Assembly (NCBI RefSeq): GCF_000217995.1
Contig: NC_015676.1
Location: forward strand, 1,471,708 to 1,535,707
Origin: Methanosalsum zhilinae DSM 4017
GTDB lineage: Archaea > Halobacteriota > Methanosarcinia > Methanosarcinales > Methanosarcinaceae
Direction: 5' to 3'
DNA: 64,000 nucleotides
Shown one piece after another: positions 24,396-38,820 of this stretch; position 1 is the first letter of the stretch; every line of letters begins with the position of its first letter. The translations under genes were made by a program, and so were the position numbers. The notes under the pieces are model-generated. The model worked only from the letters and a program-made list of their open reading frames with translations. It made no database searches and had not been told where the DNA came from.

Positions 24396-26198
24396 ATTAA
24401 TATCGAGCAAAAATGGATAATAATAGCTGGGGAAGAAGCTGGTCCAAAATCAAATAAGATGGGGGGCATATGGAATGTCATAGATGCTGAATCACACACC
24501 TTAGCATCCATGATAGATTCCAATGATCTGGAAGAAGATGAAAACCCCGGAATTCTTGTTGCAGGGCCGTATTATGGGCATAGTGGTGCTGACTGGAACA
24601 AAGGACTCAACCGGATAACTGATGTTAGTGGATTTGAAGAAATGGAACTGGGGGATGAGATAAAAGAAACGATTGAATCCTTACAGGAATACGGAATTGA
24701 TGTTATCACTGTTGAGAAAAGAATAAAAAATACAAAAATCGGATATTTACTATTTAAGACAGATAATTTCTGCAGGATCAATACGGTATATAAGGGAACT
24801 GAGATGTCTCTGGATAATAAGATAAAAGCGGAAGCTTTTGACCTGATTGGCCTGGACTCTCTAAAATATGAAAGTCTATCAAACGGACAGGAATATACCC
24901 ATTACCTCAACCTTTCCTATGCAATCTCTGAATTTGTAAGAATATTTGTAAATATCAAAGAAAAATACAGTAAGGAATATCATGATCAGGCCATTGCAGA
25001 GTTTGCAGCGTCTTTGATGCCCACAATGAACATATCACTTCATTGCCATGAGTTTGGACTCTTTTATGCAATTGCTCGGCTGAAAAAAATAGGCATTGCG
25101 GTCAATACAGTTGCAACCTTACATGCAACCCTTCCAGGAAGAGGGGCAGGTTACAGATCCATCCAGAAAATAAGGGATAATGACACAACATGGATTGAAG
25201 GAATTCCTGAAAACACAGCTACCCTGGAATCACTTTCAAAATATGCTGATGTGGTCACAGCCGTTGGTGACTCAACCAGAAAAGAAATCAAGCTATTCTA
25301 CGGAATAACTTCAATAGTTGTAAGAAACGGCATCTATCTTGATGAAAAAGACATAAAGTGGAACGATAAGATCAGACTTCAGGAGAATATCCAAAACTTC
25401 CTTTCAGAAACGATCTACAAATATATGGACGGAAAACAGATACCCTACAAGAAGATCATACCCATTTTTTCCATTTCCAGAATTGAAATCGAGAATAAAG
25501 GCTATCCTGACCTGCTGGACTCACTGGTACTGCTAGATCGAATAATCAAGATCGGAGTTCGAACCGGCAGGATTGATGAAGATATCAGGATAGTTTGCTT
25601 CGTTGTATGTGCGCATGGCCCAAAATACAATCTTCCAGAAGGATTTCCGATAAATATGCAAAAGGAGATTCTGGCAGGTGAGGAGAACAGACTCCAGAAG
25701 ATGATTGAAGAACGCGGATTACAATGTTCAAGCCTCCCTGGTGGGACAAGGCATGTATCAGCTATCCTGTATCCCCAATGGCTATCTGAAAATGATGGAG
25801 GACTTAATATGAACACATCCAATTTCATGACTGGATGTATAGCAGGCATCTTTCCGTCCAGATATGAACCCTTTCTCCTTACAGGCCTTGAAGCAGGTAA
25901 AGAATATACACCAAGCATTGTAAGTAAAATATGCGGGTTCAGTGACGCATTGAACACTATCGAAAGCCTGGTGCCGGGGATTGGAGGAGTGATTGTTGTT
26001 GACAACATTGATCTCTCATACAATGAAACGATAATAGATTATGCACTTGCAATAAACTATCTGGTCACCACCTACATGGAAGATAAGGTCAAGTACAAAC
26101 TTCTCTGCCAGGAAGCTAACCTGCTTGCAAAAAAAATGAACTGGGAAGGTCCAGTCAAAGAATACTATGAACTGCTCATGGGAACTAAGATCAAATGA
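24396..26198 (+). CDS. Glycogen synthase, GT3 family
   Basis: Glycosyltransferase of about 600 residues related to fungal and animal glycogen synthase. The GT3 active-site pair E-x7-E is Glu491 and Glu499 in SRYEPFLLTGLEAG; an earlier ISRIEIENKGYPDLL matches the yeast ARYE-x-KN-KG region. The first ATG (24459) would cut away IIIAGEEAGPKSNK, the conserved N-terminal strand and loop before MGGIWNVIDAE. The frame is open back to 24381 and contains no ATG, GTG or TTG there; ATT at 24396 stands 6 bases from GGAAG, with ATC at 24402 as an alternative. It makes alpha-1,4-glucan from a sugar nucleotide and begins the polyglucose island. Confidence 0.85.
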   Translation: MNIEQKWIIIAGEEAGPKSNKMGGIWNVIDAESHTLASMIDSNDLEEDENPGILVAGPYYGHSGADWNKGLNRITDVSGFEEMELGDEIKETIESLQEYGIDVITVEKRIKNTKIGYLLFKTDNFCRINTVYKGTEMSLDNKIKAEAFDLIGLDSLKYESLSNGQEYTHYLNLSYAISEFVRIFVNIKEKYSKEYHDQAIAEFAASLMPTMNISLHCHEFGLFYAIARLKKIGIAVNTVATLHATLPGRGAGYRSIQKIRDNDTTWIEGIPENTATLESLSKYADVVTAVGDSTRKEIKLFYGITSIVVRNGIYLDEKDIKWNDKIRLQENIQNFLSETIYKYMDGKQIPYKKIIPIFSISRIEIENKGYPDLLDSLVLLDRIIKIGVRTGRIDEDIRIVCFVVCAHGPKYNLPEGFPINMQKEILAGEENRLQKMIEERGLQCSSLPGGTRHVSAILYPQWLSENDGGLNMNTSNFMTGCIAGIFPSRYEPFLLTGLEAGKEYTPSIVSKICGFSDALNTIESLVPGIGGVIVVDNIDLSYNETIIDYALAINYLVTTYMEDKVKYKLLCQEANLLAKKMNWEGPVKEYYELLMGTKIK

Positions 26199-26260: not shown

Positions 26261-27235
26261 ATGTCTGAGATTAGAAAACACTATTTTCTGGATAAGTATT
26301 GTTTAATAGCAGCTGAAAGACATAAAAGGCCATCTGATTTTAAGCTAACTGAAAAGCATGCTTCCAGCTCAAACTGTGTCTTTTGCCCGGGAAATGAGAA
26401 AAAAACACCACCACCAACAGCAGTCTACTACGATGGTGAGGTTTTCAGTTCTGATATTGAAAAAAGTGATAAAGGGTGGGACATTCGCTGTTTTCCAAAC
26501 CTTTATCCTGCCCTGTCGTCTGAAAAACCCAGGAATGCTATACTATCCAGCCATCCTTGGAAAGGCTATGAAGGATACGGATATCATGAAGTTATAGTGG
26601 AAACCCCATCCCATACCAGAACAATAAACGATTATTCAGATGAAGAGATCACAATGCTCATGCATGCGTATCGAGACCGGATAAAGTATTACCAGAGCCA
26701 GAGTGATATTGAATATGTATCTCTTTTCAAGAACTGGGGAGATAAAGCAGGCGCTTCAATTGAGCATTCACACTCCCAATTAATAGCTCTGCCTCTGGTC
26801 CCTCCGATCATCTCAGAAGAGTTAAGGGTCATAGATTCTCTTGAAGAATGCCCTTACTGCAATATTGTTACCAATGAGCAGAGATCAAAGCGTATTGTCT
26901 ATGAGAACAGTCAATTTGCAGCTATTGCACCTTATTATTCTATCGTTCCCTATGAAATATGGATACTTCCCAAAAACCACATCAACCATATATCAGAGGC
27001 AGACAATAGTTTTCTGGTTGGTCTTGGCGATGCTATTAGATATATAATAATTCGCTATGAACAGATACTGGACTTACCTTCCTACAACTATATGTTTTAT
27101 GAAAGTCCTAAACTTTGTTACCACTTCAACGTAAGAATACAACCAGTACTTGCAACACCAGGTGGATTTGAAAAGAATACAGAGATATATATCAACTCAA
27201 TGCCACCGGAATTAGCTGCATCTCACCTTAAATAA
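26261..27235 (+). CDS. GalT-like HIT-superfamily nucleotidyltransferase
   Basis: Protein of 324 residues of the galactose-1-phosphate uridylyltransferase family. The nucleophile motif is EHSHSQ at 168-173; two Cys pairs (NCVFCPGN near 40 and CPYCNIV near 200) suit zinc sites; a C-terminal HFNVRIQPVLATPGG matches the second HIT half. GalT relatives act on hexose-1-phosphates, and some are ADP- or UDP-glucose phosphorylases. In a glycogen island the likely job is moving a nucleotide onto or off glucose-1-phosphate, supplying or recovering the donor for the synthases on either side (inference). GGAGTCGGGA precedes the ATG. Confidence 0.85.
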   Translation: MSEIRKHYFLDKYCLIAAERHKRPSDFKLTEKHASSSNCVFCPGNEKKTPPPTAVYYDGEVFSSDIEKSDKGWDIRCFPNLYPALSSEKPRNAILSSHPWKGYEGYGYHEVIVETPSHTRTINDYSDEEITMLMHAYRDRIKYYQSQSDIEYVSLFKNWGDKAGASIEHSHSQLIALPLVPPIISEELRVIDSLEECPYCNIVTNEQRSKRIVYENSQFAAIAPYYSIVPYEIWILPKNHINHISEADNSFLVGLGDAIRYIIIRYEQILDLPSYNYMFYESPKLCYHFNVRIQPVLATPGGFEKNTEIYINSMPPELAASHLK

Positions 27236-27250
27236 TATATAAATACGCAA

Positions 27251-28474
27251 ATGAAAAATGTGAATTTAATTTATGATCAATATGGGGGTTTTGAAATTAA
27301 AAGAACAAAGCTTAAAGTTGGAATGTTTTCATGGGAAAGCCTTTACTCAGTAAAGGTTGGAGGTATAGCCCCACATGTCTCAGAGCTTTCAGAAACACTT
27401 GCAAAAAAGGGCCATGAGGTGCATTTGTTTACCAGAAGTGGGGGTCTGCCAGATTATGAGCAGATAAATGGGGTACATTATCACAGGATATCACATGATC
27501 AGTCAGGAAACATCGTGCACCAGATGGATAAAATGTGTGATGCAATGTATTACCGCTATAGGGAGGTTATCAGAGAATATGGGGATCTGGACATACTCCA
27601 TGGACATGACTGGCATCCGGTAAATGTTCTGTGCAGAATAAAGGCAGAAGACGGCACTCCATTTATACTGACATATCATAGTACAGAATGGGGTCGTAAT
27701 GGGAACAAGCATGGTGACTGGTGGGAAGCTACTGAGATTTCTCACAGAGAATGGCTTGGAGGATATGAAGCTGCAGAGGTGATCATTACTTCAAATATAC
27801 TTAAAAGTGAGGTTCAGTATCTTTATCAGATCCCGGATTACAAGATTTCAATAATACCTAATGGAATATATGCAGGAAAGATGAGAAAGAAACTGGATCC
27901 GGGAATGATCAAAAGAAGATATGGAATTTCACCCCTTGCTCCTGTGATTCTGTTCATAGGACGTATGAGCTACCAGAAAGGGCCTGACCTGATGGTGCAG
28001 GCAATTCCCAATGTACTTGCTCACAGGCCAGATGCCCAGTTTGTATTCATTGGTGAAGGAGAAATGAGACCCTATTGTCAGCAGATTGCCTGGGATTCAG
28101 GTGTAGCCCATGCCACCCATTTTCTGGGGTATGCCCCGGATGAGGAAGCTATAGACTGGAACAATGCATGTGACATTGTATGTGTTCCCAGCAGAAATGA
28201 ACCGTTTGGTATTGTAGTACTGGAAGCATGGGATGCGGGTAAAACTGTAGTAGCTACAGATGCAGTTAAGCTCATAGATTGTTTCATAAACGGCATCACC
28301 GTATACCAGAATCCAGATTCAATTGCCTGGGGTATAAACTATGTACTTGATGGAATGGGGCTAAGGAAGCTTGGGGAAGAAGGCCAGCATCTTGTTGAGA
28401 CAAAATATAACTGGGACTCTGTATCTTATTCCACGGTCAATGTCTACATAAAGGCTTCATCTGAAAATATCTAA
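27251..28474 (+). CDS. GT4 family glycosyltransferase (glycogen synthase-like)
   Basis: Protein of 407 residues with two Rossmann domains. The N-terminal acceptor domain has WESLYSVKVGGIAPHVSELSE and LHGHDWH; the donor domain has IPNGIY, LFIGRMSYQKGPDLM and the E-x7-E motif with Glu317 and Glu325 in RNEPFGIVVLEAWDAG. This is the pattern of archaeal GT4 glycogen synthases and related alpha-glucan transferases. It starts 16 bases after the GalT-like gene. Having both GT3 and GT4 synthase-like genes in one island suggests different donors or a priming versus elongation split, which is not proven. Confidence 0.88.
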   Translation: MKNVNLIYDQYGGFEIKRTKLKVGMFSWESLYSVKVGGIAPHVSELSETLAKKGHEVHLFTRSGGLPDYEQINGVHYHRISHDQSGNIVHQMDKMCDAMYYRYREVIREYGDLDILHGHDWHPVNVLCRIKAEDGTPFILTYHSTEWGRNGNKHGDWWEATEISHREWLGGYEAAEVIITSNILKSEVQYLYQIPDYKISIIPNGIYAGKMRKKLDPGMIKRRYGISPLAPVILFIGRMSYQKGPDLMVQAIPNVLAHRPDAQFVFIGEGEMRPYCQQIAWDSGVAHATHFLGYAPDEEAIDWNNACDIVCVPSRNEPFGIVVLEAWDAGKTVVATDAVKLIDCFINGITVYQNPDSIAWGINYVLDGMGLRKLGEEGQHLVETKYNWDSVSYSTVNVYIKASSENI

Positions 28475-28507
28475 TCCAGCTGGAAAATAATCTTATTGGA
28501 AAATATT

Positions 28508-30508
28508 ATGTTTGAGTCAGTTTTTCCATCAAATGAATTTAAAGATTACAGGAGCGGATTGCGTAAAGAGTGGATCGTTACCAATGGGCTTGGAGGATAT
28601 GCATCATCCACCATAACAGGTGCAAATTCCAGAACATATCACGGCCTTTTGGTAGCTGCCATGAATCCACCTGTTGACAGGATACTGTTACTTTCGTCCG
28701 TGGATGAAATAATAGAGATCAATGGCGAACTGTACCATCTTGCGGTACATAAATATCCAGATACGGTATATCCTGAAGGATACAGATACCTCAACTCTGT
28801 CTCCTTTAATCCTTTCCCTGTGTATACATATAATCTGGGAAATGCCCGGATAAGTAAACACATCTTTATGGTTCATGGTCAGAATACAACGATCATTGAA
28901 TACCAGATAGATGGGGTTTGTGACAATGACAGTATTTCAATGAAATTACTACCACTTATCAATACAAGAAATTTTCATCATACTGCACGGTCAAATGATA
29001 ACATATTCAAGCAGACGGCTGGCTCATTCAGAACTGAAATAACCAATGGTAATGTTTCATTTCAATTAAGTTCAAATGCCGGCTATTTTCCTGCAGGAAA
29101 CTGGTACTATGATTTTGAGTATGAACACGAACTGGAACGTGGAAACTTTTATACAGAAGACAATTATAATCCTGGATATTTTGAAAAAAGTTCTTTGACC
29201 AATGGAAGCCACATATTTCTCGTTGCATCTACTGAACATATACCTGACATAAATTCTGAAGACATTGAAATTCTCTACAGAAAAGAAATTGAAAGACTTA
29301 TAGATATAGAAAGAAAATGCAGCTATAAAGATAACATTATATCAAAACTCTATCCTGCAGCAGATTCATTCATTGTTCAGCGAAAATCAACCGGATCAAA
29401 TACCGTTATTGCTGGATATCACTGGTTTTCTGACTGGGGACGGGATTCAATGATATCACTACCGGGCCTTACACTGGTTACCGGACGATTTGAAGAAGCT
29501 TCCAGCATACTAACCACATTTTCAAAGTACTGCAGAAGGGGACTTATACCAAATCGCTTCCCTGATCACAGTAAAGACATGCCTGCATACAATACAGTTG
29601 ATGCTCCTTTGTGGTTTATACATGCAGCCGGACGTTATTTTGAATATACCGGTGATGGAAATCTAATTGAGGATATCTGGAGTACCATAAAGGAAATCCT
29701 ATATTATTATACTCATGGAACTGATAACGGCATAATAATGGACTCAGATGGCCTTATAAGACATAATGACCAGCTTACATGGATGGATGCAAAAATTGGA
29801 GTAAATGCAGTAACTCCAAGAGCCGGTAAAGCATGCGAGATCAATGCACTCTGGTATAATGCTCTGAATACAGCTTTATTTATATCAGATAACCTGCAGC
29901 TTGATATTGAATTCAATGCTGATGATCTCCATATGATCAGAGAAAATTTCAGTAAAATGTTCTGGAATACGCATGAAAAATGTCTTTTTGACTTTATAGA
30001 TGACAGAAAAGAAACTAGTATTATAAAGGACCCTTCAATACGTCCAAATCAACTTTTTGCAGTATCACTGCCATATACAATGCTAACCCACAAACAGAAC
30101 TGCCAGATTGTCAAAAAGGTCGAACAGGAATTGCTCACCCCTGTTGGGATCAGGACTCTCTCACCTGGAGATTCAGGATACACCGGAATATATTCAGGGA
30201 ATATCTGGACACGGGATGCAGCATACCATAATGGAACTGTCTGGCCCTGGCTTATGGGGGCATACATATCAGCCTATACCAGGGTCAACAACTATTCAGA
30301 CCAAAGCATCGCATACTCAGAGCAGTTACTGCAAGGACTTGATGGTCATTTATATCAGGCAGGTGTTGGCACCATATCTGAGATATTTGATGGTGATCCA
30401 CCACATGACCCTAAAGGATGTATATCCCAGGCATGGAGTGTTGCAGAAATAATGCGGGCATACATTGAAGATATTGTAAACCAGGGAAAAGTTAAGGTCA
30501 TGTATTAA
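28508..30508 (+). CDS. Glycogen debranching enzyme (amylo-alpha-1,6-glucosidase)
   Basis: Protein of 666 residues. The N-terminal beta domain (to about 270) begins KEWIVTNGLGGYASSTITG with NSRTYHGLLVA, and the C-terminal (alpha/alpha)6 domain has DWGRDSMISLPGL (Trp310-Asp313), GLIPNRFPD, YNTVDAPLWF and WTRDAAYHNGTVWPWL. It removes alpha-1,6-linked glucose at branch points. A TTG at 28496 extends the frame by four residues, but ATG at 28508 gives the usual N-terminus. It follows the GT4 gene by about 33 bases. Confidence 0.92.
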   Translation: MFESVFPSNEFKDYRSGLRKEWIVTNGLGGYASSTITGANSRTYHGLLVAAMNPPVDRILLLSSVDEIIEINGELYHLAVHKYPDTVYPEGYRYLNSVSFNPFPVYTYNLGNARISKHIFMVHGQNTTIIEYQIDGVCDNDSISMKLLPLINTRNFHHTARSNDNIFKQTAGSFRTEITNGNVSFQLSSNAGYFPAGNWYYDFEYEHELERGNFYTEDNYNPGYFEKSSLTNGSHIFLVASTEHIPDINSEDIEILYRKEIERLIDIERKCSYKDNIISKLYPAADSFIVQRKSTGSNTVIAGYHWFSDWGRDSMISLPGLTLVTGRFEEASSILTTFSKYCRRGLIPNRFPDHSKDMPAYNTVDAPLWFIHAAGRYFEYTGDGNLIEDIWSTIKEILYYYTHGTDNGIIMDSDGLIRHNDQLTWMDAKIGVNAVTPRAGKACEINALWYNALNTALFISDNLQLDIEFNADDLHMIRENFSKMFWNTHEKCLFDFIDDRKETSIIKDPSIRPNQLFAVSLPYTMLTHKQNCQIVKKVEQELLTPVGIRTLSPGDSGYTGIYSGNIWTRDAAYHNGTVWPWLMGAYISAYTRVNNYSDQSIAYSEQLLQGLDGHLYQAGVGTISEIFDGDPPHDPKGCISQAWSVAEIMRAYIEDIVNQGKVKVMY

Positions 30509-30848: not shown

Positions 30849-31910
30849 ATGAGAAGATTCGTAAAAAAAACTTCCTATAAAGCAGGTTTTCCACCAGGTA
30901 CACTTGTCCATATTGGAGAAAAGAAAACAGAAACAGTCAGAATTTCGTATCTGGATTATGATTATTCAAACATACACGAGAATGTAGTCGATTCTATTGA
31001 AGAGTGTTTTCCTTTAAAGGACACACATACAGTAAGCTGGATCAATATCGATGGTATTCATAGGGTGGACATAATTGAAAAGATCGGGAAACAATTTGAT
31101 ATTCATCCACTGGTACTGGAAGATATACTCCATACCAATCAACGGCCAAAGATCGAAGATTTTGGCAACTATATGTATATTGTTCTCAAAATGATTTATT
31201 CCAATGAGAATAATGAAATCAATTCAGAGCAGATAAGCCTGATAATGGGAGAAAATTTCGTCATATCATTTCAGGAAATCGAAGGTGATACTTTTGAACC
31301 AGTTCGAAAGCGCATCAGGAGTGAAAAAAGCCGTATACGCAAAATGGGACCAGATTATCTTACCTATGCTCTGATAGATTCTATAGTTGACAATTATTTT
31401 ATTATTCTTGAAAAAATAGAGGACAAATTAGATTTAATTGAAGATGAAGTTGTTTCAAGCCCTACACCAGACGTGCTCAGAAACATTCATAGTCTCAAAT
31501 GGGAAATGACATATCTTCGTAAATCAGTATGGCCTCTCAGGGAAGTAATCAACAGTATGACCCGAACGGAATCAAACCTGATACAGGAATCTACCAGAAT
31601 ATATCTTAGAGACCTTTATGATCATACCATTCAGGTTATTGATACAGTAGAAACATTCAGAGATATACTATCCGGAATGCTTGATGTTTATCTATCCAGT
31701 ATAAATAACAAAATGAGTGAGGTCATGAAGTTCCTTACGATCATTGCAACCATCTTTATACCTCTGACATTCATAGCCGGTGTTTATGGAATGAACTTTG
31801 AATATATGCCTGAACTTGAATGGAAATGGGGCTACCATCTAATACTATCATTAATGTTTCTAACCGTACTTACCATGGTCGTGTATTTCAAGAAGAAAAA
31901 ATGGTTTTGA
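30849..31910 (+). CDS. corA: CorA-type magnesium/cobalt transporter
   Basis: Protein of 353 residues. A long soluble N-terminal domain (1-285) with WINIDGIHRVDIIEKIGKQF and a stalk helix is followed by two membrane segments near 292-314 and 326-347; the first ends in the signature YGMNF and the periplasmic-side loop is EYMPELEWKWGY. CorA pentamers carry divalent cations down the potential. Normal length. It sits inside the glycogen island after the small winged-helix gene. Confidence 0.95.
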   Translation: MRRFVKKTSYKAGFPPGTLVHIGEKKTETVRISYLDYDYSNIHENVVDSIEECFPLKDTHTVSWINIDGIHRVDIIEKIGKQFDIHPLVLEDILHTNQRPKIEDFGNYMYIVLKMIYSNENNEINSEQISLIMGENFVISFQEIEGDTFEPVRKRIRSEKSRIRKMGPDYLTYALIDSIVDNYFIILEKIEDKLDLIEDEVVSSPTPDVLRNIHSLKWEMTYLRKSVWPLREVINSMTRTESNLIQESTRIYLRDLYDHTIQVIDTVETFRDILSGMLDVYLSSINNKMSEVMKFLTIIATIFIPLTFIAGVYGMNFEYMPELEWKWGYHLILSLMFLTVLTMVVYFKKKKWF

Positions 31911-31957
31911 AGCATTATAAATTAACTTCTTTCGTTTGAGGATTACAGGGATTAATT

Positions 31958-32665
31958 ATGTTCGGATCGTACAACATTCCGTTTAAGATCGAAACTGAAA
32001 ATATCAGCCTGCGGGTTGAAAAACTGGACAGCATTTATCTATACAGAAGAGATGCAAATAATGAGAAAGTAGATAAGAATCTCATGGACGTGGAAGGCAG
32101 TCTGCTTATCAATCCAATTGAACCCCTGAACAGACCAAAAAAAATCACTTCATATCTTCTGATCGAATTCGAAAGGCCTGTTATACTAAGTCCGGGTTCC
32201 TCAAATACTGCATATATCCGATTTCCGGTTGAAATCGGAGTATTCATTTCCGGCAAAGGTAAGTACGAGATACTTGATATCATTTCACTTTCAAAAAAGA
32301 AGTTCACTCTTTACGGAGATCCAAGTGATGGAGTGATCTGCAAGTACTGGAAAAGTGAGGTCTTTTCTACAGTGCCGGAATTAAACAGTCTATATGAGGG
32401 GGTCATAGAGATGAATATAATTAATGAAACTCAGAAATGGTCTGAGATCACCAGAACTGTTCTAAATGCCTATGGTATGAAAATATATTATACCTCTGAC
32501 ATGGTATCAATGAAAATCAATATGAGGGTTACAGGCCAAAGAACTGCTTTGACCGAATTTGTCAATTCGCCCATTAAAGAAAGTATGAAGAAGTCACTTG
32601 AACTTTATACTCTTGGAATCGTTCGTGTAAGCGGTGGGAACTATCTGATGGAGAAGGGACTTTGA
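31958..32665 (+). CDS. DUF432 family protein
   Basis: Soluble protein of 235 residues, predicted largely beta. I recognise the DUF432 look: FGSYNIPFKIETENISLRVEK at the start, LLIEFERPVILSPGS, and FPVEIGVFISG. The family has no known function, but its genes are often next to MscS channels, as here: the stop overlaps the TTG start of the next gene by 4 bases, so the two are translationally coupled and may act together (inference). GGGAT precedes the ATG. Confidence 0.85.
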   Translation: MFGSYNIPFKIETENISLRVEKLDSIYLYRRDANNEKVDKNLMDVEGSLLINPIEPLNRPKKITSYLLIEFERPVILSPGSSNTAYIRFPVEIGVFISGKGKYEILDIISLSKKKFTLYGDPSDGVICKYWKSEVFSTVPELNSLYEGVIEMNIINETQKWSEITRTVLNAYGMKIYYTSDMVSMKINMRVTGQRTALTEFVNSPIKESMKKSLELYTLGIVRVSGGNYLMEKGL

Positions 32666-33549
32666 TATCATCAATAATGTCACATTTACCCGAAAGTGGC
32701 CTATTAATTATCAAATTCTTCACATCCATTTTTGCACTGATACTCATAATCATAGCCAGTAAAGCTATTACGATTTACCTGAGAAGGCTTCTAAAAGAGA
32801 GAGTAGAAAAAGGTTCTCTGGATGTTCTGCTTAAATTTACATATTATACTCTGATAGGAATTGCTTTTTTCCTGTTTGTACTTCCAACACTTGGTGTTCT
32901 TCCCTCCAGTCTTCTGGTTGCTGGGGGAATATTTGGATTTGTGATAGGATTTGCCAGTCAGAGTATTGTTGGTAATCTTATTTCAGGAATATTTCTTATC
33001 ATTGAAAGGCCAATAGAGATAGGAAACCAGGTGAACATTGAACAAAATTCCGGCATTGTGACCGATATAAATCTCATCTCCACCATTATCAGGACATATG
33101 ACGGACTCTATATCAGAATACCGAATGAAAAGGTTTTCACAAATACAATTACCAATTTTGTAGCAAATGTAGCCCGGCGTTTTGAGTATGTGGTTGGAAT
33201 ACGTTACAGTGATGATGCTGACAGAGCTATAAAGATCATAAACGATGTAGTTGAAGAGAATCCTTTTGTTCTAAAGAATCCAAAGCCAATGGCCTTTGTA
33301 GATAACCTGGGAGATAATTCAGTAAATATATTTGTAAGAATGTGGGCTCCTGCTACTGACTGGTTTGATGCAAAGACTACTCTGCTCTGGAAAATCAAAG
33401 TAGCTCTTCAAAATGATGGAATAGAAATAGCATTTCCACAGAGGACTTTATGGTTTCAGAACGAACTAAGGACAGGTGCCATAAAAAAAATGGGAAATAA
33501 TGAGGGATTTAATGATACAGAAAATCTGTTTGATCAGGAAAAAATATGA
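32662..33549 (+). CDS. MscS family mechanosensitive channel (second copy)
   Basis: Membrane protein of 295 residues. Hydrophobic segments lie at about 15-38, 55-75 and 80-110; the pore helix and following region read GGIFGFVIGFASQSIVGNLISG and IIERPIEIGNQV. It differs clearly from the first MscS (4340), so they are old paralogues. It starts with TTG overlapping the DUF432 stop (TTGA), with GGAGAAGGG upstream. Its place in the glycogen island suggests a link between osmotic state and polyglucose turnover (inference). Confidence 0.92.
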   Translation: MISSIMSHLPESGLLIIKFFTSIFALILIIIASKAITIYLRRLLKERVEKGSLDVLLKFTYYTLIGIAFFLFVLPTLGVLPSSLLVAGGIFGFVIGFASQSIVGNLISGIFLIIERPIEIGNQVNIEQNSGIVTDINLISTIIRTYDGLYIRIPNEKVFTNTITNFVANVARRFEYVVGIRYSDDADRAIKIINDVVEENPFVLKNPKPMAFVDNLGDNSVNIFVRMWAPATDWFDAKTTLLWKIKVALQNDGIEIAFPQRTLWFQNELRTGAIKKMGNNEGFNDTENLFDQEKI

Positions 33550-33622: not shown

Positions 33623-34759
33623 ATGAAAGGAGTTTGTGTATGTTGGGAAGTGCATTTGCCCTATGACATAAAATGGTACTGGGCAAATGAGGGGTATCAA
33701 AAACCTTCAATGGAAAAGTATTTTAATCTGATCAAAACTTTTTCCAATTTTGATCGTTTTGCAGATGAGGTAATCTCAAGCAATGAAATTCTAAAAGAAT
33801 CCATTGCAGATGGAGGAAAATATTCATTCAATATATCCGGAACATTTATTGAACAATGTAAATGGAATATGGAAGTTATCTCTTCCTTTCACGGACTATT
33901 GAACAGTGGAAATGTTGAGTTGCTGGCTTCTCCCTATTACCAGTCAGTATGTTCTCTATTTGAGAACCATTCAGACTTTATAGAGCAGGTGAAAAAGCAC
34001 TCATCTACCATAAACGACATCTTTGATGAAAAAGTTCAGACACTTGTAAATACCCAGCTCCTGATGTCTGATGAGATTGCCAGATCTGCGTATCAAATGG
34101 GATTCAGGTGCATGATATCTGAAGGATCTCACAATATAGTCAGGAAAAATGATCCTGTATATGTATATAAAAATCATTTACCTGTAATTCTCAGACATAT
34201 CAACCTGAGTGAGGATATAGAGAGACGTTTTTCTGAAAAAAAATGGACAGGATATCCATTGATAGCAGATAAATTTGCAGCCTGGGTCAATAGTATGGAA
34301 GGGGATGTCCTTACACTATATATCAACTACGATTCACTCTCAAGTCACAGAAAAGACAGTGAACTGATCCATGATTTTATTAGAGACCTGCCAAAGAGTC
34401 TTGCCAGTCACGATATCCAAATGATCACACCTTCAGAAGCTGTAAAACTCTACAGTGCAAGGCCTCTTGAAACACTCAAACGTGAATCCACTGCCAGATA
34501 CGGCATTAACAGCCTTATAGGAAACCATGTGCAGCACATATACATGCATGAGCTTACAGGTGCAGGAAAGGAACTTGAAAATATAAAAGATAGATCATAT
34601 CATTCATCTCTGCAGCATATCTATCGCTGTCTCCAGCAAAGCAGTATTATGCATGATATGAATGCTGTAAATTATCCACTGGCATATGAAAGAGCGGTTA
34701 ACAATCTTTCAATTCTATCAGACCTAAAGCGTGCATTGATCTCAGGAGACAAACAATGA
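33623..34759 (+). CDS. GH57-like protein lacking catalytic residues
   Basis: Protein of 378 residues that aligns along its length with the active GH57 protein encoded next. All GH57 landmark motifs are recognisable but altered: region 1 HQPHR is HLPYD at 11-15; the nucleophile block RNTELL is VNTQLL with Gln145 in place of Glu; the acid/base block MDYETFGEH is INYDSLSSH with Asn235 in place of Asp. Yet the frame is intact and the fold-forming residues are kept (KWYW, the YPL-ADK block, GYP). It is therefore probably an inactive partner, glucan-binding or regulatory, rather than a pseudogene. Its stop overlaps the next start by 4 bases (ATGA), fitting a two-subunit complex. Confidence 0.85.
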   Translation: MKGVCVCWEVHLPYDIKWYWANEGYQKPSMEKYFNLIKTFSNFDRFADEVISSNEILKESIADGGKYSFNISGTFIEQCKWNMEVISSFHGLLNSGNVELLASPYYQSVCSLFENHSDFIEQVKKHSSTINDIFDEKVQTLVNTQLLMSDEIARSAYQMGFRCMISEGSHNIVRKNDPVYVYKNHLPVILRHINLSEDIERRFSEKKWTGYPLIADKFAAWVNSMEGDVLTLYINYDSLSSHRKDSELIHDFIRDLPKSLASHDIQMITPSEAVKLYSARPLETLKRESTARYGINSLIGNHVQHIYMHELTGAGKELENIKDRSYHSSLQHIYRCLQQSSIMHDMNAVNYPLAYERAVNNLSILSDLKRALISGDKQ

Positions 34760-36018
34760 GATCTATATGCCTATATTTTGAAATTCATCAGCCACACCGC
34801 CTAAAGTGGTTCTGGCCGGATCAAATATCTACAGGTTTTGAAAGATATTTTGATACATCAGTTAACAGAGAGATATTTGAAAAGGTTGCCAATAAATGTT
34901 ATATCCCTGCCAACCGGCTCCTGCTGGATCTTATAGATGAGCATGGTAAAGATTTCAGATTCAGTGTATCTATTACCGGAACCCTGCTGGACCAGTGTAC
35001 TATGTGGGGAGAAGAGGTCATTGATACTTTCAGACAAATGGCAGAATCTGGTTGCGTTGAGTTTCTTGACGAGACAAACTATCATTCGATTGCAGGCCTG
35101 TTCGACGATCGTTCAGAATTTACAGAACAGGTGATAGAGCACAGAAAAAAGGTTTCGGATCTTCTTAAAGTGCAGCCTGATGTATTCAGAAATACCGAAC
35201 TTCTATACAACAACAGTATTGCAAAGACTGCATCAGATCTTGGATACAGGGCTATACTTGCAGAAGGTGCAGACCATGTACTGGATCCATCAATGGGTCA
35301 TATCCATCCATTTGAAAACCGGAATATTATTGAAAACAGTCGATATTCACCAAATTATGTATACCAGGCCAGAGATTCAAACATCAGGGTTTTGTTAAGA
35401 AATTATCCATTGAGTGATGACATAGGATATCGATTTTCTTCTCGATCATGGAATGAATATCCATTGACTGCCGATAAATGGGCAACCTGGGCATCTCATG
35501 CCAGAGGAGACACGTTGAACATATTCATGGATTATGAAACATTCGGAGAACATCAATGGGCAGATACCGGTATATTTGAATTTCTGAAAAGCTACCCAAA
35601 TGAAGTAATAAAAAGGAACCTGGAGTTCAATACACCCTCTGAAACTATAGATAAATACCAGACCACAGGGATTGTTGATATAGATGACTTTTCCACAATC
35701 TCCTGGGCTGATATGGAAAGAGATACAAGTGCATGGATAGGTAATGATATGCAAAGGAGATGCTTTGAGGAAGCTAAGCTTCTGGAGCCTTATGTCAAAA
35801 GAACAGGGGATTATGAACTGATCAGGATCTGGAAACATTTTCTGACCTCAGACCATTATTATTACATGTCTACCAAATGGCTGGGTGATGCGGACGTACA
35901 TTCATATTTCAGCATACACACATCACCCTACGATGCAGCTGTTAATTTCATGGCAGCTTTCATGGATTTTAAAGCAAAGGTATTTTACAGGCTTAAAAAA
36001 GATAATAAAATTCAATAA
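34756..36018 (+). CDS. GH57 family alpha-amylase
   Basis: Glycoside hydrolase of 420 residues with an intact GH57 active site: region 1 FEIHQPHR at 8-15, nucleophile Glu148 in FRNTELLY, acid/base Asp259 in FMDYETFGEH, and the aromatic block SWADMERDTSAW. It cleaves or rearranges alpha-1,4-glucans inside the cell; no signal peptide is present. The gene is coupled to the preceding inactive paralogue and precedes a V4R-domain gene by about 10-20 bases. Amylase versus 4-alpha-glucanotransferase cannot be settled from the motifs. Confidence 0.9.
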   Translation: MRSICLYFEIHQPHRLKWFWPDQISTGFERYFDTSVNREIFEKVANKCYIPANRLLLDLIDEHGKDFRFSVSITGTLLDQCTMWGEEVIDTFRQMAESGCVEFLDETNYHSIAGLFDDRSEFTEQVIEHRKKVSDLLKVQPDVFRNTELLYNNSIAKTASDLGYRAILAEGADHVLDPSMGHIHPFENRNIIENSRYSPNYVYQARDSNIRVLLRNYPLSDDIGYRFSSRSWNEYPLTADKWATWASHARGDTLNIFMDYETFGEHQWADTGIFEFLKSYPNEVIKRNLEFNTPSETIDKYQTTGIVDIDDFSTISWADMERDTSAWIGNDMQRRCFEEAKLLEPYVKRTGDYELIRIWKHFLTSDHYYYMSTKWLGDADVHSYFSIHTSPYDAAVNFMAAFMDFKAKVFYRLKKDNKIQ

Positions 36019-36036
36019 ATAGGGAGATTGATCAGT

Positions 36037-36831
36037 TTGGCCCAGAACATGTGCATGTTTTATACGCCTGGAGAGGATAATTGTCTTGCATGGGTAAAGA
36101 TACATTATGACAAAAATAATGCAACCAGCTCAATGATATCCAAAATACTGGAATCTGAAGCTGTTTCAGTTATTTTTGCCACTGTTGACAATTTTGAATA
36201 TCCTGACATCGGTAAATTTTATGTGTTTATTGAGATCAGGAAAGAAGAACTAAAGAATCTGATCAGCAGCATTGAATCTCAAGAATATATAATGGATGTA
36301 GAATATGACATTTCAAATAACAGATTGATACATTCAATCGATTTTCCATTTACAATACTTGGTGGAAGGGCAATCGTTACAAGAGCACTGACATTTGTGG
36401 ATATCATAAAAATAATCAGAGAAAATGTACATGAATCTGAAGGTATACTTGTGCACAGTGGTCTCAAAGGCGGAAGACATGCTGCAAGACATGTGAGCCG
36501 ATATATGGAGGTTAATATCAACAATTTTGCAGATATACTCAAAGAGCTATTTCAGGCTGCAGGCTGGGGTCTGCTCAATATAGAATATGACCATGAAACA
36601 CATGAAGGAACAATAACTGTTCGTGATTCATTCATATCAGACGTATACCAGAAATCAGAAGAACATGTCTGTGCCTACATGTCAGGGTTCTTTTCAGGAT
36701 ATTTATCCGAATCGCTTGGAGAAGACATATATGCAAAAGAAATTAAGTGTCAGAGTAGCGGTCATCCGGAATGTGAACATCAGATAAGGGCTGCAACTCT
36801 TCTCGATCAGCAGATATCAATCAACAGGTGA
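36037..36831 (+). CDS. V4R-domain protein with ACT-like N-terminus
   Basis: Soluble protein of 264 residues. Residues 1-90 have an alpha/beta pattern suggestive of an ACT-like domain (CLAWVKIHYDKNNATSSMISKIL, GKFYVFIEIR). From about 120 on it follows the V4R (4-vinyl reductase) small-molecule-binding fold, ending in the typical Cys-rich block YAKEIKCQSSGHPECEHQI. V4R domains bind ligands or metals and often act as sensors. Among glycan enzymes it may sense a metabolite and control the neighbouring amylase (inference). TTG at 36037 is chosen since GGGAGAT lies at 36022-36028; TTG at 36028 would be too close. It precedes the glucoamylase gene by 6 bases. Confidence 0.78.
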   Translation: MAQNMCMFYTPGEDNCLAWVKIHYDKNNATSSMISKILESEAVSVIFATVDNFEYPDIGKFYVFIEIRKEELKNLISSIESQEYIMDVEYDISNNRLIHSIDFPFTILGGRAIVTRALTFVDIIKIIRENVHESEGILVHSGLKGGRHAARHVSRYMEVNINNFADILKELFQAAGWGLLNIEYDHETHEGTITVRDSFISDVYQKSEEHVCAYMSGFFSGYLSESLGEDIYAKEIKCQSSGHPECEHQIRAATLLDQQISINR

Positions 36832-36837
36832 ATACCG

Positions 36838-38820
36838 GTGATAAGGAATACCAATGCCATACTTGGAAACTCTGAGCTGATGGTAACTCTGGGTAAAAGG
36901 GGGGAGATTTTAGGATTTTTTTATCCAAGACGTGATTATGCACAGCATGTCGAAGAGTCAATGATGTGTATTTATTCAGATGAATTTACAGAAAGTACAG
37001 ATAGCGACAGTAATTCAGATCGACTGCTGTGGATGAATTCTTCCCGGTGGGAATACGTACAGAAATATACTTCAGATTCATATAATGTAGCTACGAGATT
37101 AAAACATGATAATGGTCTGGAAGTGTCAATACTTGACAGTGTGCATCCTCTAATGCCCGCACTTACAAGAAAATTCAGGATAAGTTCCAAACACGATTTT
37201 GATGGAAAGCTGTTCTATTATTCCAGCCTTAATGCAGGAGATATGTCAAAGCAGAATACATGCTATTGTGACAATGAAGAATATATTGTAGTGCAGTACT
37301 GGCAGGATTATCATCTGGGCCTTACATCCCTGCCTGAATTCCAGAGCTGGCAGGTCAGTAAGATATTTGGAAGCAGCTGGTGGGCAAATCCAAAATATGA
37401 CATGGAGGACGGAGCACTTCAGAACAACAGAGAGGATATCGGAAAACCTGGGTTTGCTCTTGGATGGGATATGCATATTAAAAAGCATGAACCTTTTGAA
37501 GTGACTATCTTTATGGGTGCATCCAACAATAAATCAAGCCTTTACAGAAAAATGAGAGAAATCAGGTCACAGTCTATTGAGAGAATTAGCGAACAGGTGC
37601 AGGAGAACTGCGTTAAATGGCTTTCCAGAAAAAAACCATTGGATATTTTTGAAAAAGATGACCTGGATTTGAATATAAGCCTCCTTGAAATCTACAATCG
37701 ATCCCTTCTAACACTTAAATTACTCAATGAGCCTTCCCATGGATCATTTATCGCATCACCTGAGTTTGATCCAGCTTTTGAGATGTGTGGAGGATATGGA
37801 TTTTGCTGGAACCGGGATGCTGCAGAGATTGCAAGTGCGCTGTTGAATTCCGGATATCCTGAATATACAGGAAAATTCTTCAGGTGGTGTGTAAAAACCC
37901 AGCTTCCTGATGGATCCTGGTTCCAGAGATACTGGACTGACGGCAGACATGGTCCTTCCTGGAGCAATTTCAATTCTACAACTCAGATCGATGAAACGGG
38001 TTCCACTCTGCATGCAATTGGTAAATATTATGAAACTCTTGAGGGGATTGATAGAATTGATTTCATTGAGCAGATGTGGGTTACGGTACTGAGGGGAGCG
38101 GAGTACCTTATAAAAAGAACCCGGAATGGGCTTCATGACGCATGCATGGACCTTTGGGAAACTCATGTAGGAACTTTTACCTATACAAATGCGTCTATTT
38201 TTGCAGGTCTTATTCAGGCTGCCCGTATTGCAGATGACTACGATCAGAAAGAGCTTGCAGGCAGGTGGAAAGAACATGCTTACAACCTGAAAGAGCAGAT
38301 TCTGAATGATCTGTGGACGGATGAGGGTTATTTTGCCAGAGGAATTATGCATGACAGATTAGACTACACTGTCGATGCAAGCATCCTTGGTACAGTTACC
38401 CCATTTGACCTCCTATCACCACATGACCCTGAAGAGAGGAACAAAATCTACTCACTGATCAATACAATTGAAAATCGTCTAAAGATAGAAGTAAATGATC
38501 ATTATGGCATCAAAAGGTATGAAGATGACCAGTACATTAACGGAAATCCGTGGATAGTAACTACACTGTGGCTATCCAAAACCATGCTTATGCTTTCACA
38601 TGCGCTTCAAAAAGAAGGAGATTTTGATCAGAGCAGGCAGTTCCGGAGCAGAGCCATCAGTCTAATACAATGGTCGGTTAAAGGAACAACAGATACCGGC
38701 CTTCTGCCGGAACAGGTAGATAAGGATCACGGAAATCCTGCCTGGGCAATACCGCTTGGATGGAGTTGTGCTCTTATGGTTGATAATATCATTTTACTTG
38801 ATGAGATCTACAGAAATTGA
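36838..38820 (+). CDS. GH15 family glucoamylase
   Basis: Protein of 660 residues with an N-terminal beta-sandwich (to about 270) and a C-terminal (alpha/alpha)6 barrel. Visible motifs: CWNRDAAE near 323, QIDETG near 383, the acid Glu441 in MDLWETH and the base Glu625 in LLPEQ, all expected of GH15. It releases glucose from non-reducing ends of alpha-glucans. No signal peptide is seen, so it acts on internal polyglucose. It starts with GTG six bases after the V4R gene and closes the island. Confidence 0.93.
   Translation: MIRNTNAILGNSELMVTLGKRGEILGFFYPRRDYAQHVEESMMCIYSDEFTESTDSDSNSDRLLWMNSSRWEYVQKYTSDSYNVATRLKHDNGLEVSILDSVHPLMPALTRKFRISSKHDFDGKLFYYSSLNAGDMSKQNTCYCDNEEYIVVQYWQDYHLGLTSLPEFQSWQVSKIFGSSWWANPKYDMEDGALQNNREDIGKPGFALGWDMHIKKHEPFEVTIFMGASNNKSSLYRKMREIRSQSIERISEQVQENCVKWLSRKKPLDIFEKDDLDLNISLLEIYNRSLLTLKLLNEPSHGSFIASPEFDPAFEMCGGYGFCWNRDAAEIASALLNSGYPEYTGKFFRWCVKTQLPDGSWFQRYWTDGRHGPSWSNFNSTTQIDETGSTLHAIGKYYETLEGIDRIDFIEQMWVTVLRGAEYLIKRTRNGLHDACMDLWETHVGTFTYTNASIFAGLIQAARIADDYDQKELAGRWKEHAYNLKEQILNDLWTDEGYFARGIMHDRLDYTVDASILGTVTPFDLLSPHDPEERNKIYSLINTIENRLKIEVNDHYGIKRYEDDQYINGNPWIVTTLWLSKTMLMLSHALQKEGDFDQSRQFRSRAISLIQWSVKGTTDTGLLPEQVDKDHGNPAWAIPLGWSCALMVDNIILLDEIYRN

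Follow-up and report, generated by a model that had tools for sequence, protein, structure and literature searches.

Two genes of glycoside hydrolase family 57 (GH57), here called A and B, lie in tandem in Methanosalsum zhilinae DSM 4017, a methanogenic member of the family Methanosarcinaceae in the order Methanosarcinales. They were studied within a window of 64,000 nucleotides (contig NC_015676.1, positions 1,471,708 to 1,535,707), and all coordinates given here are those of the window. B carries both catalytic acids of GH57, whereas in A both are replaced; the two genes are inherited together. This arrangement, and the role that A may play beside B, is the subject of this analysis.

The tandem pair

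As a first-pass annotation of the sequence had described, the pair consists of two open reading frames on the same strand that share the four bases ATGA (Table 1). Both proteins match PF03065, and with 195.6 bits against a cut-off of 21.2, A belongs to GH57 by homology. The two share 30% identity and align end to end in a profile-profile comparison (E 2.8e-79). They are the sole GH57 genes of the genome, which is a single contig of 2,138,444 bases. In most orthologues, a purine-rich ribosome site of the GGAG type lies inside A, just 5' of the start of B. No NCBIfam model matched either protein.

The search for related loci gave Methanosalsum only, and wider orthologues were taken from genome searches. 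The family sample comprises 81 genomes, 63 of them with GH57, and counts for A and B refer to 60 fetched orthologue pairs together with the window. Of the 63 genomes with GH57, 61 have the two genes next to each other, and the contigs of the remaining two, G012 and G037, stop where A would begin. In none of the 63 is either gene of the pair truly missing while its partner is present. The stop codon of A overlaps the start codon of B in ATGA in 60 of the 61 pairs, and in the remaining pair the genes are separated by two bases. The pair is inherited as a unit. Further, tandem pairs are present in two more families of the order, f2 (G081, G125) and f4 (G083, G087, G091, G095, G099, G103), and given this recurrence, the pairing is far beyond chance. 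Single GH57 alpha-amylases are found instead in family f3 and in the genomes sampled from outside the order.

Loss of the catalytic pocket in A

In the 2018 report whose nomenclature is used here (PMC6037648), the alpha-amylase group of GH57 is recognised by the catalytic Glu and Asp, by Glu or Gln at position 1 together with Arg or Glu at position 12, and by a pair of tyrosines at the end of conserved sequence region 5 (CSR-5). B shows all of these, as Glu9-x-His-Gln-Pro, Arg145-Asn-Thr-Glu148, Met-Asp259-Tyr and DHYYY, and its fingerprint reads EIHQP, RNTELL, FMDYETFGEH and a CSR-5 ending in tyrosines. The counterparts in A are EVHLP, VNTQLL and YINYDSLSSH, with no CSR-5 and no double tyrosine. 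The earlier reading of the individual residues was borne out by alignment. B keeps Glu148 and Asp259, whose columns are occupied in A by Gln145 and Asn235 without any gap nearby; HLPYD stands in A where B has HQPHR. Thus, A of the window lacks both the Glu nucleophile of CSR-3 and the Asp proton donor of CSR-4 that define catalytic competence.

In B, the Glu and Asp are present in all 62 family members with data and in 8/8 proteins of f2 and f4, or 70/70 in total. The corresponding columns of A behave differently. At the nucleophile column, 58 of the 61 family proteins have Glu and three have Gln, all three being from Methanosalsum; the acid/base column holds Asn (27), Lys (25), Asp (7), Ser (1) and Arg (1). 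Parsimony on the tree requires two changes at the first column and seven at the second. It had been argued that the isosteric exchanges to Gln and Asn, in an intact frame, point to a selected non-catalytic partner. This argument is not supported, as the Gln/Asn combination is specific to Methanosalsum and is not the conserved feature of A. The A protein of Methanosalsum natronophilum (L059:1815-2930) has Gln at the nucleophile column with Asp at the acid/base column, has lost His11, which is otherwise conserved, and sits on the longest terminal branch among the family A proteins.

The wider pocket is more telling. The pocket residues lost in A are Arg15, Glu261, Trp268, the Asp319-Asp323 stretch and CSR-5. 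The Arg of HQPxR is missing from A in every family member with data, and the segments that carry Asp319, Glu321, Asp323 and Val381-Phe385 in B are missing from all A proteins; about half of the family-wide invariant residues are retained. In family f2, A has HHPYH, with Asp in place of Glu at the nucleophile column and Asp at the acid/base column. Both acids are retained in A of genus g14 and in A of f4, which also keeps HQPFR. Despite both acids, the f4 protein has Ala for Glu261 and has lost Trp268 and the CSR-5 tyrosines, so much of the pocket appears to have been dismantled before the change to Gln and Asn. The Gln/Asn state of the window protein is a late, genus-level step, and the probably non-catalytic state of A rests more on the wider loss of the pocket, much of which is already seen in the earliest-branching A, than on these two exchanges.

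Selection and predicted structure

Between the window and the nearest species, the ratio of nonsynonymous to synonymous substitution rates (dN/dS) is 0.11 for A and 0.13 for B, and the medians over 115 close pairs are 0.09 and 0.07, respectively. A ratio of about 0.1 means that A is under clear purifying selection. The rate of evolution of A is about 1.9 times that of B, and the distances of the two within the family are correlated (r 0.88). Dozens of columns of A are at least 95% conserved, including the new Gln338-Gln339 and Arg292-Tyr293-Gly294; these residues are also among the 18 columns that are fixed differently in A and B. The most conserved block of A (187-221) is ancestral and is conserved in B too. 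Conservation in A is shifted away from the former active site.

In a tree of 70 sequences, A and B each form one clade (support 100/100 and 100/98). A groups with B among the archaeal alpha-amylases, but the sister placement of the two is weakly supported (86/50) and the stem of A is long; therefore, a tandem duplication within the order would be the simplest origin, though not a proven one.

Both proteins were modelled as single chains with AlphaFold2, built on 26 orthologues. The model of A has a mean predicted local distance difference test score (pLDDT) of 88.7 and a predicted template modelling score (pTM) of 0.90, against 79.3 and 0.85 for B. When compared with GH57 crystal structures, A is matched over its full length (Z 32.3, root-mean-square deviation 3.2 over 334 residues) and is thus predicted to have the GH57 fold, a seven-stranded barrel with a helical bundle; B is likewise matched over its length (Z 27.8, root-mean-square deviation 3.3 over 339 residues). 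When the PDB was searched by sequence, neither the two proteins nor their profiles retrieved a GH57 relative, and the matches came from fold comparison alone. The GH57 glycogen branching enzymes (3p0b, 3n8t, 5wu7) share the fold of A and B (Z 23 to 29), but they are about 100 residues longer, and B has the two CSR-5 tyrosines that are typical of the alpha-amylase group.

Glycogen gene neighbourhood

Table 1. The GH57 pair and glycogen-related and adjoining genes in the window
Feature	Coordinates	Strand	Evidence
GT3-type glycogen synthase	24459..26198	+	PF05693 E 2.2e-12
GT4 glycosyltransferase, candidate glycogen synthase	27251..28474	+	PF00534, PF08323
GH133 archaeal-type glycogen debranching enzyme	28496..30508	+	PF06202, PF12439, TIGR01561 over cut-off
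A: putative GH57 pseudoenzyme, 378 aa	33623..34759	+	PF03065 E 1.5e-57; alignment to B and 60 family orthologues
ATGA overlap, start of B within end of A	34756..34759	+	kept in 59/60 family orthologue pairs besides the window
B: GH57 of the alpha-amylase group, 420 aa	34756..36018	+	PF03065 E 2.3e-80; both acids; GH57 fold
V4R-domain protein directly 3' of B	36028..36831	+	PF02830 E 3.8e-14; neighbourhoods
GH15 glucoamylase-type enzyme	36838..38820	+	PF00723 E 1.9e-26; TIGR01577 683 bits, under its cut-off

The pair lies among genes of glycogen metabolism (Table 1). In all 11 neighbourhoods examined it is followed by GH15; the genes there run A, B, (V4R), GH15, frequently with GH133 next. The debranching enzyme is present in 63/63 GH57-bearing family genomes and is absent from 16 of the 18 without GH57; GH57 and the glycogen genes are lost jointly. 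In genus g8, four genomes (G022, G040, G055, G062), all near-complete and one a single contig, are without the pair and the debranching enzyme, while relatives in the same genus keep them, which is a wholesale loss of the glycogen pathway.

Proposed role of A

The reading favoured here, with a probability of about 0.6, makes A a non-catalytic subunit of B, the active GH57 enzyme, with which it would be co-translated; both are encoded in an operon for glycogen synthesis and turnover. A look-alike that is linked to a live gene and kept by selection suggests that the dead copy is a partner of the live one. This reading builds on the anatomy of the locus, its conservation, purifying selection, co-inheritance, the operon context and the predicted fold of A. 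The residues of the two proteins suggest that B is active and A dead; A would then bind B physically, and either position the glucan or stabilise B. The first-pass annotation had likewise proposed a selected non-catalytic partner, and linkage, overlap, selection and fold all uphold a selected and probably non-catalytic protein, but the isosteric argument is not supported as its ground.

The pair may have arisen as follows. An ancestral GH57 gene would have been duplicated in tandem within the order, with B kept as the enzyme. The pocket of A would then have been lost in steps: Glu261, Trp268 and the CSR-5 positions went first, followed by the Arg and Gln of HQPxR, then by the acid/base Asp in most lineages and, in Methanosalsum, by the nucleophile Glu as well. 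Throughout, the fold of A and its linkage to B would have been retained. The ATGA overlap would lead to coupled, neighbouring synthesis of the two chains and favour their assembly into a heteromer, in which A may keep B in shape, or may hold a portion of the branched glucan during chain cutting or transfer by B.

Certain points weigh against this proposal. GH57 alpha-amylases outside the order function without A. The nucleophile Glu persists in nearly all family A proteins, and a pure scaffold need not keep it. A correlation of rates between proteins of the same genome, as seen for A and B, says little about contact, and the f4 protein with its Glu, Asp and HQPFR could still be active.

Another explanation, which is unlikely but deserves mention, is that A is a stand-alone glucan-binding or glucan-sensing protein, a lectin derived from a dead GH57, acting in the same pathway without being bound to B. 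It would also account for the place of A in the operon, and His11, Pro13, Asn143, Asp198, Trp208 and Tyr236 are still conserved in A. Further, the structural matches include an amylopullulanase of Aquifex aeolicus in two mutant forms, E256Q and D352N, with the nucleophile and the acid inactivated; by their PDB entry titles, these were crystallised with maltopentaose and cyclodextrins, and such exchanges are therefore compatible with glucan binding in an otherwise whole GH57 pocket. The pocket of A, however, is not whole, and conservation in its active-site regions does not significantly exceed that in its other columns (entropy 1.16 vs 1.41, p 0.12), as against a marked difference in B (0.28 vs 0.88, p 2e-5). 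A purely glucan-binding role, which had also been suggested earlier, is thus not specifically supported, and strict co-inheritance and the overlap indicate a fixed partnership instead.

It is less probable still that A remains an enzyme, which in most of the family would carry out some other reaction with its conserved Glu and altered partner residues. The prevalence of that Glu and the two acids in f4 and g14 speak for such a reading. Nevertheless, the acid/base column is Asn or Lys in 52 of the 61 proteins, the nucleophile is Gln in Methanosalsum, and the loss of Glu261, Trp268, Arg15 and CSR-5 is hard to reconcile with it. Finally, that A is a decaying duplicate kept merely by its position 5' of B is very improbable and is rejected for the family as a whole, for although A evolves at about twice the rate of B and its catalytic columns drift, its reading frames are open throughout the orthologues, its dN/dS is low, its strongly conserved columns number in the dozens and the full fold is predicted; the first-pass annotation had likewise read the intact frame as speaking against decay.

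Relation to known systems

GH57 'alpha-amylase-like' proteins without catalytic residues are already described as a heterogeneous group, with 60 members from archaea and 66 from bacteria, in some of which the machinery is complete (PMC6037648); a tandem intact paralogue, an overlap, an order of residue loss and a role are not described in the text consulted. A literature search for GH57 pseudoenzymes found none, and the obligate overlapping pairing of a dead and an intact copy with graded pocket loss in Methanosarcinales was not found described in a search that was incomplete. Within a single archaeal order, the pair provides a natural series in which a duplicated enzyme seems to lose its active site stepwise while still tied to its live twin.

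A close parallel is the plant pair ISA1/ISA2 of GH13, in which a catalytically active alpha-glucan hydrolase is bound by a paralogue that has no activity of its own, is retained by selection and influences the structure of the polymer (PMC12510319). Homology and retention are established for A and B, whose residues suggest a live and a dead paralogue. The plant proteins differ in being GH13, branch-cutting and eukaryotic, and binding is proven for ISA2, whereas between A and B it is proposed. By this analogy, the best reading is that A would work with B as ISA2 does with ISA1.

Among archaea, AmyA of Sulfolobus acidocaldarius (saci_1200) is encoded in a glycogen operon, and an amyA mutant fails to accumulate glycogen despite the amylase annotation (PMC8158581). 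This protein and the amylase of Methanocaldococcus jannaschii are single GH57 proteins related to B. The single archaeal enzymes have no A partner, and several, unlike B, bear a C-terminal DUF5752-like domain. This domain of about 100 residues, which partly matches DUF5752 (PF19027), was seen in L081-L084, L087 and L089-L099; it is absent from B and from the window genome. The idea that A substitutes for it is weakened by families f3 and f17, which are without both A and the domain.

A review raises the question of whether the branching enzymes that are missing in archaea could be their GH57 amylases (PMC11046441). A more specific and rather doubtful extension of the subunit proposal is that the heteromer of A and B is the missing glycogen branching enzyme of Methanosarcinales, where B would cut and transfer chains, the dead A would hold the acceptor, and both genes would be needed. 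Within a subset of 41 family genomes, 20 that bear the pair, several of them complete, have no GH13 protein and therefore no GH13 branching enzyme, and no other full GH57, yet they have the debranching enzyme. In the window genome, a single weak GH13 match (69 bits) lies elsewhere. The pair is a concrete candidate explanation of how glycogen could be branched or shaped in these archaea in the absence of a classical branching enzyme. As GH57 is present in Methanosarcina acetivorans, the pair is present in its genus and genetic tools exist, the idea is directly testable.

Other genes and signals around the pair

Scans for promoters and terminators gave nothing clearly over shuffled sequences, the consensus used being bacterial. 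A galactose-1-phosphate uridylyltransferase-like protein (26261-27235), encoded between the GT3 and GT4 genes, may supply nucleotide sugar for glycogen synthesis. The V4R-domain protein, perhaps a small-molecule sensor, is encoded between B and GH15 in L101, L103, L104, L105 and L107-L110, and is absent in L100, L102 and L106. Between the glycogen genes also lie those for a CorA transporter, a DUF432 protein and an MscS channel (30849-33549); the same order, CorA-DUF432-MscS, is found beside A in another genus (L103), and the DUF432 and MscS genes overlap by four bases.
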